Positions 34,382 to 45,532 of a stretch of DNA of 64,000 nucleotides are shown piece after piece. The notes under the pieces are model-generated. The model was not told the origin of the DNA. It made no database searches and saw only the letters and a list, made by a program, of their open reading frames with translations. Location of the stretch: NCBI RefSeq assembly GCF_900184965.1, contig NZ_FXYA01000154.1:62001-126000 (forward strand), in the 5' to 3' direction. The position numbers and the translations under genes are program-made. The first letter of the stretch is position 1, and every line of letters begins with the position of its first letter. This DNA comes from Akkermansia muciniphila (GTDB taxonomy: Bacteria; Verrucomicrobiota; Verrucomicrobiia; Verrucomicrobiales; Akkermansiaceae).

Positions 34382-37300
34382 ATGGAACATACGCCTCCCC
34401 TCCCTTCCGGATTTAATATCAACGGTTATCTTATCCAATCCCTGAAGCAGACGGATTCCCTCTGCCATGTGTATTACGCTTCGGACGCCGACCATGTTCA
34501 ATACCTGCTCCGCGAATTCTGTCCCCAGGGGCTCGCTGTGCGCGACCCGGAAAGCGGGAAACTGCGTTATCCGGAAAACACGGATATTGAACGGGAAGTT
34601 CTTCCGCTGAAGAATGATTTCGAAGCGCAGTTCCGCACGGGCTCCCTGGGGGAAATCCCCGCTCTGGGCACCCTGTACCTGGCTTATGCCATTCCCGGCG
34701 GCCATGCCGCCGCGCAGCCCCCTGCGGCATCCCGCCTCCAGCGCGATCAGCGGACCCTGGCCGCTCCCGGAACCGCCGGGGCGGCGCCCGTTCATGCGGG
34801 CTCCCTTCCCCAGCCGCGGAAAAAGAAGAACTCCGCCGGCATATGGATTCTCACCCTGCTCCTGCTGGGAGGCGCATGCGGAACCTATTATTTCACCCGG
34901 AACCCCGCGGAAAAACCCGTCTCTGCTCAGGAGCCGGACGTTCCCCACTCCAACAGGGAAAAGAAGGAAGCCGCCAAACCGGAAAAGAAAGCCGCCCCGC
35001 CCGCCGTAAGTGGGGAAGCCTCCCCCGAACAGGAAAACGCCGCGGGCCTCTCCCCGTCCGGACCGGCGGAGCAGCCGGAAAAAACGCCGCCGGCCACTTC
35101 CTCCGGGGAACGGAATGAAGACGCCCCGGGCGCTTTGGAGGAAAAATCCGCAGACGCTCCTGCACAGCCTGACGAAAGCTCCTCCGCCCCGGCAGACGAC
35201 GCTGCGGATGGAAAACAGCCGGAACCGCAACAGCCCGCCAACCGGAAGGAATCACAGGAGGGACAGACTGCCGCCAAACCTGCACCCGTAGTGCGTCCGC
35301 GTGGGAAAGCCGCCAGGCAAACAACCAATATGGGGGATGTGAACGCCTATGTGAAAAAATTCGCCAAGCCCATGCCGCTGAACCAGTGGAGAAAACAATA
35401 CGCCGAGCTGTACACGAGCTGGTTCGGCAATTCCGAGGAAGTAGCCAAAGGCTGGATCACCACCTTCGGTCCTCTGGGCTTCCGCGCCCGCGGCCTGGAC
35501 GCCTCCTGGCCGGACACGAACTTCCGCGGCTTCTTCCCAAAAACCATGCTGGACCCCAACGGGGAACCCGTGGCGAACCTTTACACGGTCACCCAGGTGA
35601 TTGAAGGTTCCCCTGCCGAAAAATACGTCAAGGAAGGTGACCTGATCCTGGGCATTGACGGACACCTCTTCAAAACGTCGCAAAGCCTGGACGTGCTTTA
35701 CGGCCCTTATCAGCATCAGAACCGGCGCGGCCTGGACATGCACGCGGGCCTTCTGGTGGACAAGGCGGAAGGCGCCGGAAAAATCACCCTGAACCTTATT
35801 CCCGCGGAAAGCGTGGAAAAAATCCAGGGCATCCAGCCCCTCTGGAAGGAAGCCTTCCGGGAGGAACGGGCTAAAAAGCCCGTTTCCCTTTCCATTCCGG
35901 TAAAGGGCGGCCAGCAGGTGCGCCTGCGTGTGGATGACGGCGGCAACGGCATCGGCAGTGACGGCTTCGAATGGTCGGAACTGAGGCTGGAAGGCCCCGG
36001 CGGAACCGTTCCGCTGACCAAGGCCCAGCAATACACCGTGGGTTACGGAGAAGCCAGGTACGACGCCAAAAGCAAGGTATGGCAGGCGCACGCCGTCTCT
36101 TCTCTGGTCTTTGATATCCCCAAGGGAGACTGGAATCTTAAAGGAACGGGAACCCCCAGGTGGTCCGCCTCCGTGGGCGTGACCGTACAGGTGGGCGGCT
36201 CCGCTGCCCTGCCGGACGCAGTGAAAAAATACGTGAAAAACGTCACCTTCAAAATCCCCCAGCTGGGTTCTTATGCCCTCGGCTTCCCCAAAAATTGCGC
36301 CAAGAGCAAGGCGGTCGTCCATATGATGAGCGAATGGCTGGCGGCCCAGCAGCGCGAAGACGGCTCCTGGGAACGCCCGGGCGGCTACTGCGGCAACCAT
36401 TATGATACAGGCTGGGCCGGCCTGGCCCTGATGGCCACGGGCAACCCGAAGTATGACCCCGTCATTAAAAAAGCGGCTCAGTACATCGCCTTCTCCGGCT
36501 CCCAGTGCTGGTGGGCCGTCCCCCAGGCCTCCGCGGGCATTTTCCTGTGCGAATACTGGCTGCGCTACCGGGACAACTCCGTGCTTCCGGCCATCCGCAA
36601 CGGCGTGCAGCGCATGAAAAATGAAGTCCTTTATGGGGACTTCGTCACCGGCCACGGCATTCACCCGGGCTACCGGGGAACAGGCGTCAGCATCGGCGGC
36701 TCCCACATGTGCCTGTTCCTGGCGCTGGCCAGCAAAACGCCGGCGCGCACGGAAGACGGCGTACTGGACAAAATGATGGACCATGCCCAGTCCATCTGCC
36801 CCACCGGCATGGGACCCTATGGCCGCATGACGGAAACCTTCACCTTTGAACCCGACCGTGAATGCGGGGGGACCTACTCCGGACGCCACGGCCCGTACTA
36901 CATCGCCTCCCTCATCTGCGGCGGACCGGAGCTGTACACGAAAAACAGCCGCATCATGTATGGGGAAGGCCCCATCGGCGGCTGTGACCAGGGCCACTCC
37001 TCCGAGACGCTCTCCATCATGTGGGCCCTCCCCGCCTACTGGCGAACCAATCCGGAAGCATACTACAAAAACATGGAGGCTTTCCGGTGGAAACTGACGC
37101 TGCTGCGCCCCTTTGACGGCGGCATGATGCAGAACCCCAACCGCCTGGAACTGATGACGGCGGACTCCGTCATCGGCACCTACATCCGCACCAGCATCTG
37201 GATCACGGCCCTCTGCGCGGAACGCCAGAACCTGGCAATTACGGGCAAGCCTGAATTCCAGGCCAAAACGTTCCGGAAGGTTCCCCCCATCATTGACACG

Positions 37301-38743
37301 GAATCCCGCTTCCTGAACACCTACGTGCGCAACTGGTCCATGGTAAACGCTGCGCTTGGAACCAAGGCCCCCGCCTCCCTGAAATCCGCCATCCGGGAAT
37401 TGAAAAATATTCCGGTGGAACAGGGCTGCCGCTTTAAGCTTATCAATGTCGTCAACAACCGCGCCCTCCCCATCGCCAAGGCCATCATGGAGATTCCCGG
37501 GGTGGACCAGCTCACCAGGGCCACTTGCGCGGAAATGATTTTGGGCATGGATGTGCGCATTTTCTTTGAACCCAAGCGCAACGACGGCAACCCCCAGCCC
37601 GGGGAATATTCTCTGAACGTGGACGTCCAGCAACCACTGGGCGGCCGCGCCCTGGGGCTCCACCGCGACAAGGAGCAGGAAGGGAAAGCCAACTCCGCCT
37701 ACAAATATGATTTTGCCGGCACGGTGCAATTCAGCGACACGACCACCTTCTCCCCCATGGAAACCATTTCCTGGACGCCCAATTCCAAATTCGGCGGCCA
37801 ATGGAACGTCTACTCCTACAAGAAGGAACTCAGCGGCCCCACCCAGCCGGGCGTGCAAAAAATGAACGCCAAAATCAAATGGCGCGTCAATGACCTGGAG
37901 GTGGAATACGACCGCCCCATCGCCGTGGGCGGCTTTGAAGTGGGATGTGCAGAAAAGGCCCTCTCAGTCACCAACTGCAACCATCTGTGGGTGCCGGGCA
38001 TCCTGATCCGGGATCACGGCAACTGGGGCTGCTCCTTCCATCTGCCGGACGGGACCTACATTTCCGCGGCCTCTCAGGGCAATCAGATAGAGGTGTACGA
38101 CAAAACGGATAAAAAGAAGGAAAAAACCTGGGTTTCCCCGAATGACTCCTGCCTGACTCAGGGTTCCCGCTGCCTGTTCCACGTTTCCACGGACTGGCAC
38201 GGCCTGGAATGCCGCGTGCATGAACTGAAACTGCTGGGAAGTTCCACGGAGGAAGTGGAGGACTACAAGCTGAAAGCCTCCACAGGAGGCCGTGTGGACA
38301 CGGCCAAACTGACGGACCGGGACGCCACCACCATTGAGGAGCTGGACGCTTCCCCCACGGAAGACGAGCCCCTGGTGCTGGAACTCACCCTGAAATCCCC
38401 TGCCGCCCTGCGCGCCGTGGACATCAAGATTGAAAAGGGCCACAACCGCCTCATCATTGAAGCCTACAAGGGCGGCAAGTGGGTTCCCGTCCACTGGGGC
38501 TCCCTGGGAGCCTCCACCGCCGGCGTCAGCGATGCGCAGAAAGCCATGTACGCCAATGAACCGGAAGTGCTGCGCATGCTTCAGCTTCCGGGCAACGGAT
38601 TCATCAAATGCATGCGGACGTTTGACCCCGTCACCACCAACAGGCTGCGCGTCAAGCTCTTCCAGAAGGGCGGAAAAGTCCGCCTTGCGGAACTGCACGT
38701 GTACAAGGCGAACGCTGCCAAAAATATGGCTCTCCGGTCTTAA
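34382..38743 (+). CDS. Large membrane protein: degenerate kinase N-lobe module, TM, PDZ, alpha/alpha-toroid and discoidin-like domains
   Basis: 1453 aa from ATG 34382; the frame is open 13 codons further upstream. Residues about 10-105 resemble the N-lobe of bacterial Ser/Thr kinases of the IKEYLPxxLAVRD type. Here the VAIK lysine is Arg (LLREFCPQGLAVRD, 42-55), the Gly loop is lost and no HRD or DFG exists. A KKK-flanked TM helix (153-172) follows, then a Pro/Glu/Ala linker (175-310), a PDZ domain (about 395-475, with GSPAEKYVKEGDLILGIDG) and a beta-rich stretch. Next are helical repeats (about 645-960; REDGSWERPGGYCGNHYDTG) like alpha/alpha-toroids. The C-terminal 150 residues look F5/8C-like. 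Predicted topology is N-in, C-out. Function unknown. The N-terminal module recurs at 42623. Confidence 0.85.
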   Translation: MEHTPPLPSGFNINGYLIQSLKQTDSLCHVYYASDADHVQYLLREFCPQGLAVRDPESGKLRYPENTDIEREVLPLKNDFEAQFRTGSLGEIPALGTLYLAYAIPGGHAAAQPPAASRLQRDQRTLAAPGTAGAAPVHAGSLPQPRKKKNSAGIWILTLLLLGGACGTYYFTRNPAEKPVSAQEPDVPHSNREKKEAAKPEKKAAPPAVSGEASPEQENAAGLSPSGPAEQPEKTPPATSSGERNEDAPGALEEKSADAPAQPDESSSAPADDAADGKQPEPQQPANRKESQEGQTAAKPAPVVRPRGKAARQTTNMGDVNAYVKKFAKPMPLNQWRKQYAELYTSWFGNSEEVAKGWITTFGPLGFRARGLDASWPDTNFRGFFPKTMLDPNGEPVANLYTVTQVIEGSPAEKYVKEGDLILGIDGHLFKTSQSLDVLYGPYQHQNRRGLDMHAGLLVDKAEGAGKITLNLIPAESVEKIQGIQPLWKEAFREERAKKPVSLSIPVKGGQQVRLRVDDGGNGIGSDGFEWSELRLEGPGGTVPLTKAQQYTVGYGEARYDAKSKVWQAHAVSSLVFDIPKGDWNLKGTGTPRWSASVGVTVQVGGSAALPDAVKKYVKNVTFKIPQLGSYALGFPKNCAKSKAVVHMMSEWLAAQQREDGSWERPGGYCGNHYDTGWAGLALMATGNPKYDPVIKKAAQYIAFSGSQCWWAVPQASAGIFLCEYWLRYRDNSVLPAIRNGVQRMKNEVLYGDFVTGHGIHPGYRGTGVSIGGSHMCLFLALASKTPARTEDGVLDKMMDHAQSICPTGMGPYGRMTETFTFEPDRECGGTYSGRHGPYYIASLICGGPELYTKNSRIMYGEGPIGGCDQGHSSETLSIMWALPAYWRTNPEAYYKNMEAFRWKLTLLRPFDGGMMQNPNRLELMTADSVIGTYIRTSIWITALCAERQNLAITGKPEFQAKTFRKVPPIIDTESRFLNTYVRNWSMVNAALGTKAPASLKSAIRELKNIPVEQGCRFKLINVVNNRALPIAKAIMEIPGVDQLTRATCAEMILGMDVRIFFEPKRNDGNPQPGEYSLNVDVQQPLGGRALGLHRDKEQEGKANSAYKYDFAGTVQFSDTTTFSPMETISWTPNSKFGGQWNVYSYKKELSGPTQPGVQKMNAKIKWRVNDLEVEYDRPIAVGGFEVGCAEKALSVTNCNHLWVPGILIRDHGNWGCSFHLPDGTYISAASQGNQIEVYDKTDKKKEKTWVSPNDSCLTQGSRCLFHVSTDWHGLECRVHELKLLGSSTEEVEDYKLKASTGGRVDTAKLTDRDATTIEELDASPTEDEPLVLELTLKSPAALRAVDIKIEKGHNRLIIEAYKGGKWVPVHWGSLGASTAGVSDAQKAMYANEPEVLRMLQLPGNGFIKCMRTFDPVTTNRLRVKLFQKGGKVRLAELHVYKANAAKNMALRS

Positions 38744-42622: not shown

Positions 42623-45532
42623 ATGACAATCCCTCCTCCCCCTGCCCTCCCGCCACATTTCAACATAGGCGGCTACAGCATCACGGCGCTTGTAGAAAGC
42701 GGCCCGGACTATCATCTGTACCAGGCTCTTTCCCCGGAAGGCCATACGGTCCTGATACGCGAATTCTGCCCACGGGGCCTCGTCACGCGCGATCTGGCCA
42801 GCGGGGAACTGTCTGTCTCTCCGGGATATGAAGCCCAATACTCCCAGGCCTGGGAAGCTTTTGAAACCCAATACGCAGCCAATGCGCAAGGCAAATTCGG
42901 AGGGTTAGGCACCGTCCTGTTTCTTTACCCGCTTTCTCCGGCGCAGCCCCAGCCGGCTGTAGCGCATGCCCAGGCTCTCCGCCCCGCCCAAAAACCTCAG
43001 CAACCGCAACTGCGGAAACCCGTAGCCGGCGCCCCCATCCCCGGAGCGCCGCTGCCGCGGGTAAAGCGCTCCGGAGGGTTCCCGGTCATCACAGTGATTG
43101 TGACCGGGATGCTTGCCCTCTTTGGATTTCTGGGCTACCAGATACTCAAGGATAAAAAGGAACCCGTCGCCAAATCCGTTACCGTGCCGGCAGCGGCTCC
43201 GCCCAAGCCCAAACCCAAGCCCGCTCCTCCTGCTCCGGAGCCCGTGGTGGTCGCTCCCGAACCGGAACCCGTAGTGGTCGCCCCCGAACCTGAACCGGAA
43301 CCCGAACCGGAACCGCCTGCTCCCGACCTTTCCCCCTCCCCGGAAGTCATTGCCATGGAAAAGGCTTTACGGGAGGAAGCTATCGCGTCCAAGGGGAAAT
43401 TTTCTGAAAAACTGCTGAACAAATATCCCCATTACGCGGAAGCCTACGTGCGCGACTACGTAAAAAAACGCGGAGGCAGTTTTTCTCCGGATTTTGAAAA
43501 ATGGCTGAAAAACACGAAAAACAACCGTGAAGTCTTCGCCATGTTCTTCCCGCCGGACCCCAGCGTCGCCACCAATGTGGCGTTCATGATTGATGAACTG
43601 GGCCTGGAAATGACGGAAAAATATGACCAGCTCGTTCTGGCGTTCGCGGTAGGACGCCGCGAATTCGGCATGGGGGCCTTCGACCTCACCCATCAGGGCC
43701 GCTACGTTGACGCCCTGGGCAAGCTGGAAGGCCTCAGATCCTCCGGAGTCATGCCCCCGCCAGCGGACCTGTACTGCGCCGGGAAACCGCCCGTCAACTG
43801 GTATGGGAACGCCCCCCGCACCGTGGATGAGGAATGCTACAAAAAGGTGGAAGCTTATCTGGACCGCAAAAAAATCACCCCCAAGCAGGCCTGGCTCAAA
43901 AAATACCCCACCGTATCGGAAATCGGGGATTCCGCCATTACGGAAGACAACCTGGCCGGATTTCTGCATGAATACATGTACCGCCACGGCCAGCTGAGGC
44001 GCAAGAGGGACCCCTTCCCCACCCCGGTGGAATTCTTCTCCTACCTGGTGGATAAATATGAACATTGCGGCGATTTGCGCGACGTGGACCGCAAGCGTGT
44101 GGAATGGACCGGCGTTTCCCTGGAAGGAACGCCCTGGCCGGCCATGATGGCCCTTTCGGAAACGCGCCCCCTGCGTGAGTGCGACAGCGTGTGGGAACGC
44201 TACATGGGACAGCGTGGGCCGACCCGCCTGTGGCTGTACGGCCCCTACCGGTCGGATGACGATAAAGAGCCGCCCATCCTGTTCAGCTTTGACCCGGATC
44301 CGGAATGGTCCCGGGAATCCAACGAACGCAAGCTTCATGAAGGCGGCGTGTGCGGCACCATGTCCCTTATCTCCCGCAATTCCCAGATCGCCCGCGGCAT
44401 CCCCGCCGCCCCCGCCGGACAACCCGGCCACGGCAACCTGATGACCACCCACTTCACCGGCAACGGCTGCTGGCTGAGCGTGGGCCAGAGCGTGGACACC
44501 CTGAAAGCCACCACGGGATTCTGGTACTTCCGGGATTCCAGCGCGCCGCGCACCGGAAATGCGGAATACCATTCCGGACTGGCCCTGTCCATGAACCTCG
44601 ACTATGAAAAGTTCATTGACAGCCGCTTCGCCATGAACATTTACAAACTGGCGGGCGCCGGCTCCTCCCCGGAAGAGGCGGCCGACCCCTCCGGCACGCT
44701 GCCCAAGGCATTCACGCAGACCGCCATGAGGACTGTGCTCAAAGCCAACCCGTTCTATACGGAAGCCTGGTACACCCTCTTCAAGCAGGAGCCCCAGGAC
44801 CTCATGGGAGCCACCAAGATGGTGGATGAAGTGAGGGAGGCCCTGCCGGACGGCATGGGCATCAGGAAACTCTGGAAAACGCGCAAATACGTTCCCTCCG
44901 TAGGCCGTGGCGACAAAAACGGCAAAGACATGCTGGCCAACCACACCAAGGAATACGTCAACGTACTCTGCTCCGTGATTCTTGAAAACGCCCTGAAGCA
45001 GGAATATGATTACAAAACCTTCCAGTGGACCGAACTCATGTCCTGGCTCAAATCCGAATCCAAGCGCAACTCCTACCCGGAACCCCAGGCCGCCTATCAG
45101 ATCGCGTACGCCAAGGCGCAGGGCACGGACAGGCTTAAAAGGACGGTGGACAGAGGGTTCAAGAAGGCCGCCAGCTTCTACCGGGATGAAAACAATGCGC
45201 TGAACGCGCCCAAGGATGTGGACCAGGAAGAAATGTCCTTCTCCCTGGACGCCCTGTGCCAGGCCCTGCCCAAGGAAGAACTGATCCCGTGGATGAAAAA
45301 CATGGTGGACACCTGCCCGGACGGCTTCAAGTATAAGCCCAAGAATAAAAAGGAAACGAAAATCCACCCCTTCTACGACACCCTGACGAAAAACTACATG
45401 TCCCTGGCTGACGAATCGGAAAAATCCCGCGTCAAGACGGAGATGAAAGACGCTTCCGACAGGATTCTGGAGCTTTCCCAGAAAAAGAAGGGAGACGGGG
45501 AATCATCCTCTGGACGCCGCCGGAGACGCTAA
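42623..45532 (+). CDS. Membrane protein with degenerate kinase N-lobe module, TM, Pro/Glu repeats and possible Cys-His protease/transglutaminase-like region
   Basis: 969 aa. Residues 12-105 match the N-terminal module of the 34382 protein (HFNIGGYSI, TVLIREFCPRGLVTRD at 42-57), again like a kinase N-lobe with Arg in place of the ATP-binding Lys. TM helix at about 153-174. The linker 185-240 is built of PEPVVVAPEP-type repeats. The remaining 730 residues are soluble and probably periplasmic. Within them GGVCGTMS (Cys 577) and GQPGH (His 603) recall the Cys and His of transglutaminase-like folds; this is tentative. C-terminus is RRRRR. Function unknown. 17 bp before hemW. Confidence 0.82.
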   Translation: MTIPPPPALPPHFNIGGYSITALVESGPDYHLYQALSPEGHTVLIREFCPRGLVTRDLASGELSVSPGYEAQYSQAWEAFETQYAANAQGKFGGLGTVLFLYPLSPAQPQPAVAHAQALRPAQKPQQPQLRKPVAGAPIPGAPLPRVKRSGGFPVITVIVTGMLALFGFLGYQILKDKKEPVAKSVTVPAAAPPKPKPKPAPPAPEPVVVAPEPEPVVVAPEPEPEPEPEPPAPDLSPSPEVIAMEKALREEAIASKGKFSEKLLNKYPHYAEAYVRDYVKKRGGSFSPDFEKWLKNTKNNREVFAMFFPPDPSVATNVAFMIDELGLEMTEKYDQLVLAFAVGRREFGMGAFDLTHQGRYVDALGKLEGLRSSGVMPPPADLYCAGKPPVNWYGNAPRTVDEECYKKVEAYLDRKKITPKQAWLKKYPTVSEIGDSAITEDNLAGFLHEYMYRHGQLRRKRDPFPTPVEFFSYLVDKYEHCGDLRDVDRKRVEWTGVSLEGTPWPAMMALSETRPLRECDSVWERYMGQRGPTRLWLYGPYRSDDDKEPPILFSFDPDPEWSRESNERKLHEGGVCGTMSLISRNSQIARGIPAAPAGQPGHGNLMTTHFTGNGCWLSVGQSVDTLKATTGFWYFRDSSAPRTGNAEYHSGLALSMNLDYEKFIDSRFAMNIYKLAGAGSSPEEAADPSGTLPKAFTQTAMRTVLKANPFYTEAWYTLFKQEPQDLMGATKMVDEVREALPDGMGIRKLWKTRKYVPSVGRGDKNGKDMLANHTKEYVNVLCSVILENALKQEYDYKTFQWTELMSWLKSESKRNSYPEPQAAYQIAYAKAQGTDRLKRTVDRGFKKAASFYRDENNALNAPKDVDQEEMSFSLDALCQALPKEELIPWMKNMVDTCPDGFKYKPKNKKETKIHPFYDTLTKNYMSLADESEKSRVKTEMKDASDRILELSQKKKGDGESSSGRRRRR

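Follow-up and report, generated by a model that had tools for sequence, protein, structure and literature searches.

Two genes of the gut bacterium Akkermansia muciniphila, here called A and B, each encode a membrane protein that carries a stand-alone, catalytically dead N-lobe of the PpkA-type Ser/Thr kinase lineage, as shown by computation. Both lie on the forward strand of the 64,000-nucleotide stretch that we analysed (the window; contig NZ_FXYA01000154.1, positions 62,001 to 126,000). Gene A, a real open reading frame, runs from its ATG at 34382 to a stop codon ending at 38743 (1453 amino acids); its N-lobe comprises residues 1-106 (34382..34699). Gene B (42623-45532) encodes 969 amino acids, of which residues 1-105 (42623..42937) form a second N-lobe with 35% identity to the first (E-value, E, 3.1e-13). 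A signalling enzyme has here been reduced by evolution to a small conserved cytoplasmic part, joined by one transmembrane helix to two unrelated outside domains. An earlier note, made from the sequence of the window, had described the region 34382-34900, which spans the N-lobe-like part, juxtamembrane segment and transmembrane helix of gene A, as a lone, dead kinase N-lobe on a membrane protein. Dead and lone it is; it is not, however, a single oddity, as gene B, overlooked in that note, has the same module.

The relationship is visible by direct alignment. The segment LLREFCPQGLAVRD of gene A corresponds residue for residue to the IKEYLPxxLAVRD block of PpkA-type kinases, with REFCP standing for (I)KEYLP, and the preceding beta1-beta2 part, the KEYLP/LAVRD block itself and the alphaC-beta5 end are all in register, giving the order beta1-beta2-beta3-alphaC-beta4-beta5. 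An EF.P...R motif is kept across the gene-A and gene-B families. The residues that make a kinase active are gone: the VAIK Lys is Arg44 in gene A (Arg, His or Ile across the N-lobe-only copies), the GxGGFGITY Gly-rich loop is replaced by KQTDSLCHV, and the alphaC Glu position is occupied by Ala82 in gene A and by Thr in gene B. Some ten residues fewer separate alphaC from beta5 in gene A than in kinases. The module is nevertheless the whole N-lobe rather than a fragment, because the shortened beta4 and beta5 are retained. As for the C-lobe with its HRD and DFG motifs, a Pfam search of the gene A protein gave no kinase domain even at E 10, and a scan of the 220 amino acids after the lobe gave no HRD-like motif in any N-lobe-only copy. 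On all these points the earlier note, which had listed the Arg substitution, the missing Gly-rich loop and the absence of C-lobe, HRD and DFG, is borne out.

Profile comparisons lead to the same assignment. A profile built from 34 true-kinase N-lobes of the genus Akkermansia, with no N-lobe-only sequence included, scored gene A at 24.9 bits, gene B at 25.8 bits and the gene-A homologue of genome G067 at 33.6 bits. Among 2500 shuffles of each sequence, scores rose no higher than 9.5 bits for gene A and 5.1 bits for gene B; this shuffle test rules out chance likeness to kinase N-lobes. Conversely, when eight N-lobe-only modules were made into a profile and run against the PDB with E up to 10, the sole match was the PpkA kinase 5hnv (E 0.0089; in this match REFCP aligns onto the VAIK motif); the profile also matched a kinase of the same genome (E 1.7e-5).

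The fold was modelled with AlphaFold2 from 18 N-lobe-only sequences, with no templates and no kinases in the alignment. The model (predicted local distance difference test score, pLDDT, 91.9; predicted template modelling score, pTM, 0.83) contains beta1, beta2, beta3, alphaC, beta4 and beta5, that is, the five-stranded sheet and C-helix of a Ser/Thr kinase N-lobe (PF00069, PpkA-like). Its nearest PDB neighbours are kinases: Foldseek placed PpkA on top (E 7e-5, template modelling (TM) score 0.77 over the query), and VIA-align 2 superposed the module on PpkA with Z 13.2 and 2.5 Å over 102 of 109 residues, ahead of the next kinase at Z 9.3, with kinases making up all 50 matches listed. The earlier note had proposed this structural check and named what would count against it, a non-kinase fold or the lack of an N-lobe sheet with C-helix; both were examined, and the kinase reading survived.

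PpkA-type kinases (PDB 5hnv, 5x1r) and their Akkermansia homologues share with the module not only the N-lobe fold but also the PLPxGxxxxxY start, the long beta3-alphaC segment with (K/R)E(Y/F)xPxxLAxRD, the GT(L/A)Y beta5 and the kinase - transmembrane helix - outside-domain order. Lacking the C-lobe, Lys, Gly-rich loop and alphaC Glu, and with its alphaC-beta4 region shortened, the module, in contrast to them, cannot be a kinase. Nor is it strictly a pseudokinase of the bilobal kind: it has a kinase fold with lost catalytic motifs, but one lobe instead of two. It is best called a membrane pseudokinase cut down to one lobe.

We searched for the module with profiles across the order (240 genomes, 48 genera) and the phylum Verrucomicrobiota (388 genomes, 198 genera). 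All matches at the set thresholds were from Akkermansia: the strong ones are N-lobe-only copies, and kinases or pseudokinases account for the weaker ones. Among the 198 genera sampled, this genus alone yielded N-lobe-only copies. Fifteen of the 76 Akkermansia genomes carry them, and A. muciniphila CSUN-56 bears both genes. Open frames with this architecture occur in 13 genomes for gene A and 15 for gene B, which rules out a frameshift or assembly error; the gene-A copy of genome G059 is divided over two open frames. In a maximum-likelihood tree (short sequences, rooted at the midpoint only) a branch with support 100/99 separates all 12 N-lobe-only sequences from 33 kinases and two full-length pseudokinases; the gene-A sequences lie among those of gene B. 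The simplest reading of this tree would be one origin, followed by copying from a gene like B to one like A.

The module is under selection. Among gene-A orthologues the ratio of nonsynonymous to synonymous substitution rates (dN/dS) is 0.065-0.095 in the lobe, 0.08-0.11 in the ectodomain, 0.2-0.4 in the juxtamembrane segment and 0.27-0.73 in the linker; for gene B it is 0.17-0.25 in the lobe and 0.08-0.14 in the ectodomain. Judged by these ratios, the module is retained, more strictly in gene A than in gene B, and in gene A it is constrained as much as the ectodomain, while the linker is not. Very likely, the C-lobe was lost once within Akkermansia, the module passed by copying from one ectodomain to another, unrelated one, and purifying selection has kept it. 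Two full-length membrane pseudokinases of the genus, L096 (G097:C4:13500-19500) and L097 (G073:C156:24500-30000), each with a large outside part, have Arg for the VAIK Lys and have lost HRD and DFG; as possible intermediates they show that such forms exist, not direct ancestry. The genome of the window has a further pseudokinase, L010 (G000:C82:35430-38849), with HGGITPK in place of HRD, a transmembrane helix and a discoidin-like C-terminal domain.

Beyond the lobe, gene A has the parts announced in the earlier note, which we located by hydropathy, Pfam and fold matches. A cytoplasmic juxtamembrane segment (residues 107-150, 34700..34831) ends in PQPRKKKN and is followed by a single transmembrane helix at about residues 151-171 (34832..34894), the top hydropathy window of the protein; the RKKK just before it predicts, by the positive-inside rule, an N-in/C-out orientation. 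A low-complexity periplasmic linker rich in Pro, Glu, Ala and Lys (34895..35317) leads to an outside domain (35318..38740), recognised by Pfam, a PDB profile search, AlphaFold2 with Foldseek and orthologues in other families, with PDZ-like and NPCBM/CBM51-like parts, a DUF6288 helical toroid and a C-terminal discoidin/F5-8C-like domain. DUF6288 (PF19805) is securely assigned, at 126.5 bits against a Pfam cut-off of 26.3 (E 1.9e-36). The ectodomain model, of middling quality (pLDDT 69), resembles GH76-type toroids (TM score 0.57 over the target) and F5/8C/CBM32 domains (about 0.6 over the target), both tentatively; on these folds, this outside part may bind glycan or cell wall.

Outside Akkermansia the same ectodomain is found without the N-lobe. 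It follows a bare transmembrane anchor in L184 and a signal peptide in L186 and L187, and in L185 (G164:C69:216500-223500) an N-terminal CPxC zinc ribbon (Zn_ribbon_4, E 0.002, below cut-off), a transmembrane helix and a Pro-rich linker take the place of the lobe. The place of the N-lobe is therefore exchangeable, other lineages having other small cytoplasmic parts or none. In L186 (G135:C76), from another genus of the same family, the ectodomain lies inside a 3970-amino-acid open frame.

Gene B repeats this plan with a different outside domain: its N-lobe is followed by a transmembrane helix at about residues 152-174 (43076..43144, by hydropathy) and a P/E-rich linker and outside domain (43145..45529). 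Homology of the two ectodomains was considered and not accepted, the likeness being confined to one 100-amino-acid stretch at 32.7 bits. A Pfam search of the gene B protein gave no domain. Its ectodomain has a conserved GGVCG...GxPGH core common to secreted verrucomicrobial proteins, and most of its relatives are secreted or have a single anchor. The core is possibly papain/transglutaminase-like; GGVCG and GxPGH are conserved, but neither Pfam nor PDB profiles gave a match. The ectodomain family (L188-L195) is itself undescribed: GGVCG and GxPGH are invariant across several verrucomicrobial genera, and it has no Pfam match. In genome G015, two gene-B copies with diverged N-lobes stand in tandem on the minus strand (L024, 1710-4577 and 4772-7561).

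Several known proteins resemble genes A and B in layout. EssB and MviN are membrane pseudokinases that act as scaffolds (PMC12599244, PMC3694306). EssB/YukC, of type VII secretion, likewise has an N-terminal cytoplasmic dead kinase fold, one transmembrane helix and an outside domain; it differs in keeping both lobes, in its kinase lineage and in its outside domain, and no type VII context was seen here. MviN (MurJ) of Mycobacterium tuberculosis (ActPs3) resembles gene A in combining a cytoplasmic pseudokinase with a carbohydrate-binding outside domain on a membrane protein, and its dimer interface centres on the N-lobe (PMC12599244); in contrast, it has both lobes, crosses the membrane many times and recruits an FHA protein, and FHA proteins are not universal among the carriers studied here. 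The present module is half the size of either pseudokinase. DUF6288 relatives differ from gene A in having a signal peptide, bare anchor or zinc ribbon where gene A has the N-lobe. GltJ of the Myxococcus gliding machinery also combines a small cytoplasmic adaptor module, a transmembrane helix, a Pro/Glu-rich linker and a periplasmic domain; gene A has a weak NCBIfam match to it in the linker only, the adaptor folds differ, and we claim no homology. The earlier note knew of no described class of this kind. Our searches of open-access papers likewise gave none, most subscription journals lying outside their scope, and a 2025 review of bacterial pseudokinase families does not mention a single-lobed family. 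Bilobal membrane pseudokinases are already known as scaffolds. A lone lobe that folds, is conserved and has moved from one ectodomain to another, unrelated one would mean that a dead kinase can be useful with as little as a single lobe, and would offer a small, testable handle on envelope signalling in Akkermansia.

As to function, we lean slightly towards a cytoplasmic module for docking or dimerisation, swapped in at this place, which couples an envelope-binding ectodomain to a putative partner without catalysis, in the manner of the pseudokinase domains of EssB and MviN. The large outside part would bind something in the periplasm, as the carbohydrate-binding-like folds of gene A suggest, and the folded N-lobe, connected to it by the transmembrane helix and long linker, would localise, cluster or regulate a cytoplasmic partner non-catalytically. 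The earlier note had likewise suggested docking to a real kinase or another cytoplasmic partner. The likeliest kind of partner would be either a true kinase of the PpkA type or a second N-lobe of this same sort. Pfam recognises six kinases and one pseudokinase in the genome, and a good candidate would be L236 (G000:C164:5138-6184), a PpkA-type kinase of 361 amino acids that has a C-terminal transmembrane helix but lacks an outside domain. Orthologues of this kinase (E < 1e-70) occur in the same 15 genomes as the module, with a weaker, longer one in G013. Its juxtamembrane segment aligns to that of gene A with a score of 54, which none of 5000 shuffles attained, and in a ranking of 41 kinase juxtamembrane segments the short-kinase family came out at or close to the top against gene A of G017 and G004 and against gene B of G015 and G097.

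Several observations weigh against this account. The juxtamembrane likeness is short, came to attention only afterwards and does not extend to gene B of this genome; other short kinases exist elsewhere in the genus; and the co-occurrence lies within one clade, so that shared ancestry alone may explain it. Given the apparent single clade of the carriers and the late recognition of the likeness, we treat the short kinase as a lead only. Back-to-back pairing of the PknB type relies on a beta4 residue that falls in the segment shortened here, and therefore cannot be assumed. Finally, orthologous gene-A ectodomains elsewhere are served by a bare membrane anchor or signal peptide, so export does not require the module.

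The zinc ribbon, bare anchor or signal peptide joined to the same ectodomain elsewhere would suit a passive cytoplasmic plug, a stable folded tail that fixes the N-in topology or stops the anchor from slipping. Any small fold could then serve, such as the zinc ribbon of one relative. A plug should drift, however, while the gene-A module is under purifying selection as strong as that on its ectodomain and the EF.P...R motif is conserved in two gene families; we consider it unlikely. Selection also speaks against a decaying receptor-kinase relic without present use, which the lost motifs and the full-length pseudokinases of the genus as possible intermediates would otherwise allow: with dN/dS far below 1, frames open in nearly all copies and two families maintained over the clade, this is very improbable.

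Other alternatives give the lobe a more specific partner. The ectodomain-less transmembrane kinase might be the shared catalytic subunit of a divided receptor kinase, with the N-lobe-only proteins as interchangeable sensor subunits paired to it through N-lobe surfaces and juxtamembrane/transmembrane segments; we regard this as rather improbable, though if true one kinase would serve different outside domains. Phospho-docking, in which a true kinase phosphorylates the module or juxtamembrane tail and an FHA protein is recruited, is how MviN, a pseudokinase in the membrane that also bears a carbohydrate-binding domain, works with FhaA (PMC12599244), and the genome has true kinases and one FHA protein. 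The juxtamembrane Thr is not conserved, however, and G081 and G067 (82% complete), both with N-lobe-only proteins, gave no FHA match at E 0.001; since these two carriers show no FHA protein, general FHA recruitment is unlikely, and we judge such docking improbable. We give hardly any credence to a split kinase whose C-lobe comes from a separate polypeptide to make an active enzyme. The lobe does retain beta5 and the start of the hinge, but it has lost the VAIK Lys, Gly-rich loop and alphaC Glu, and inspection of the seven kinase matches of the genome revealed no lone intact C-lobe, the sole partial match (profile 55-199) being a pseudokinase that has a degenerate N-lobe of its own.

Regarding the surroundings of the two genes, the gene-B site in Akkermansia without gene B, upstream of hemW, holds no kinase; it holds other genes, mostly nagB-like by eye. 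An operon of gene A with the downstream GH16 gene was considered and found weak, as three loci (L026, L113, L196) have no GH16 gene beside gene A; the GH16 gene has a promoter-like site of its own.
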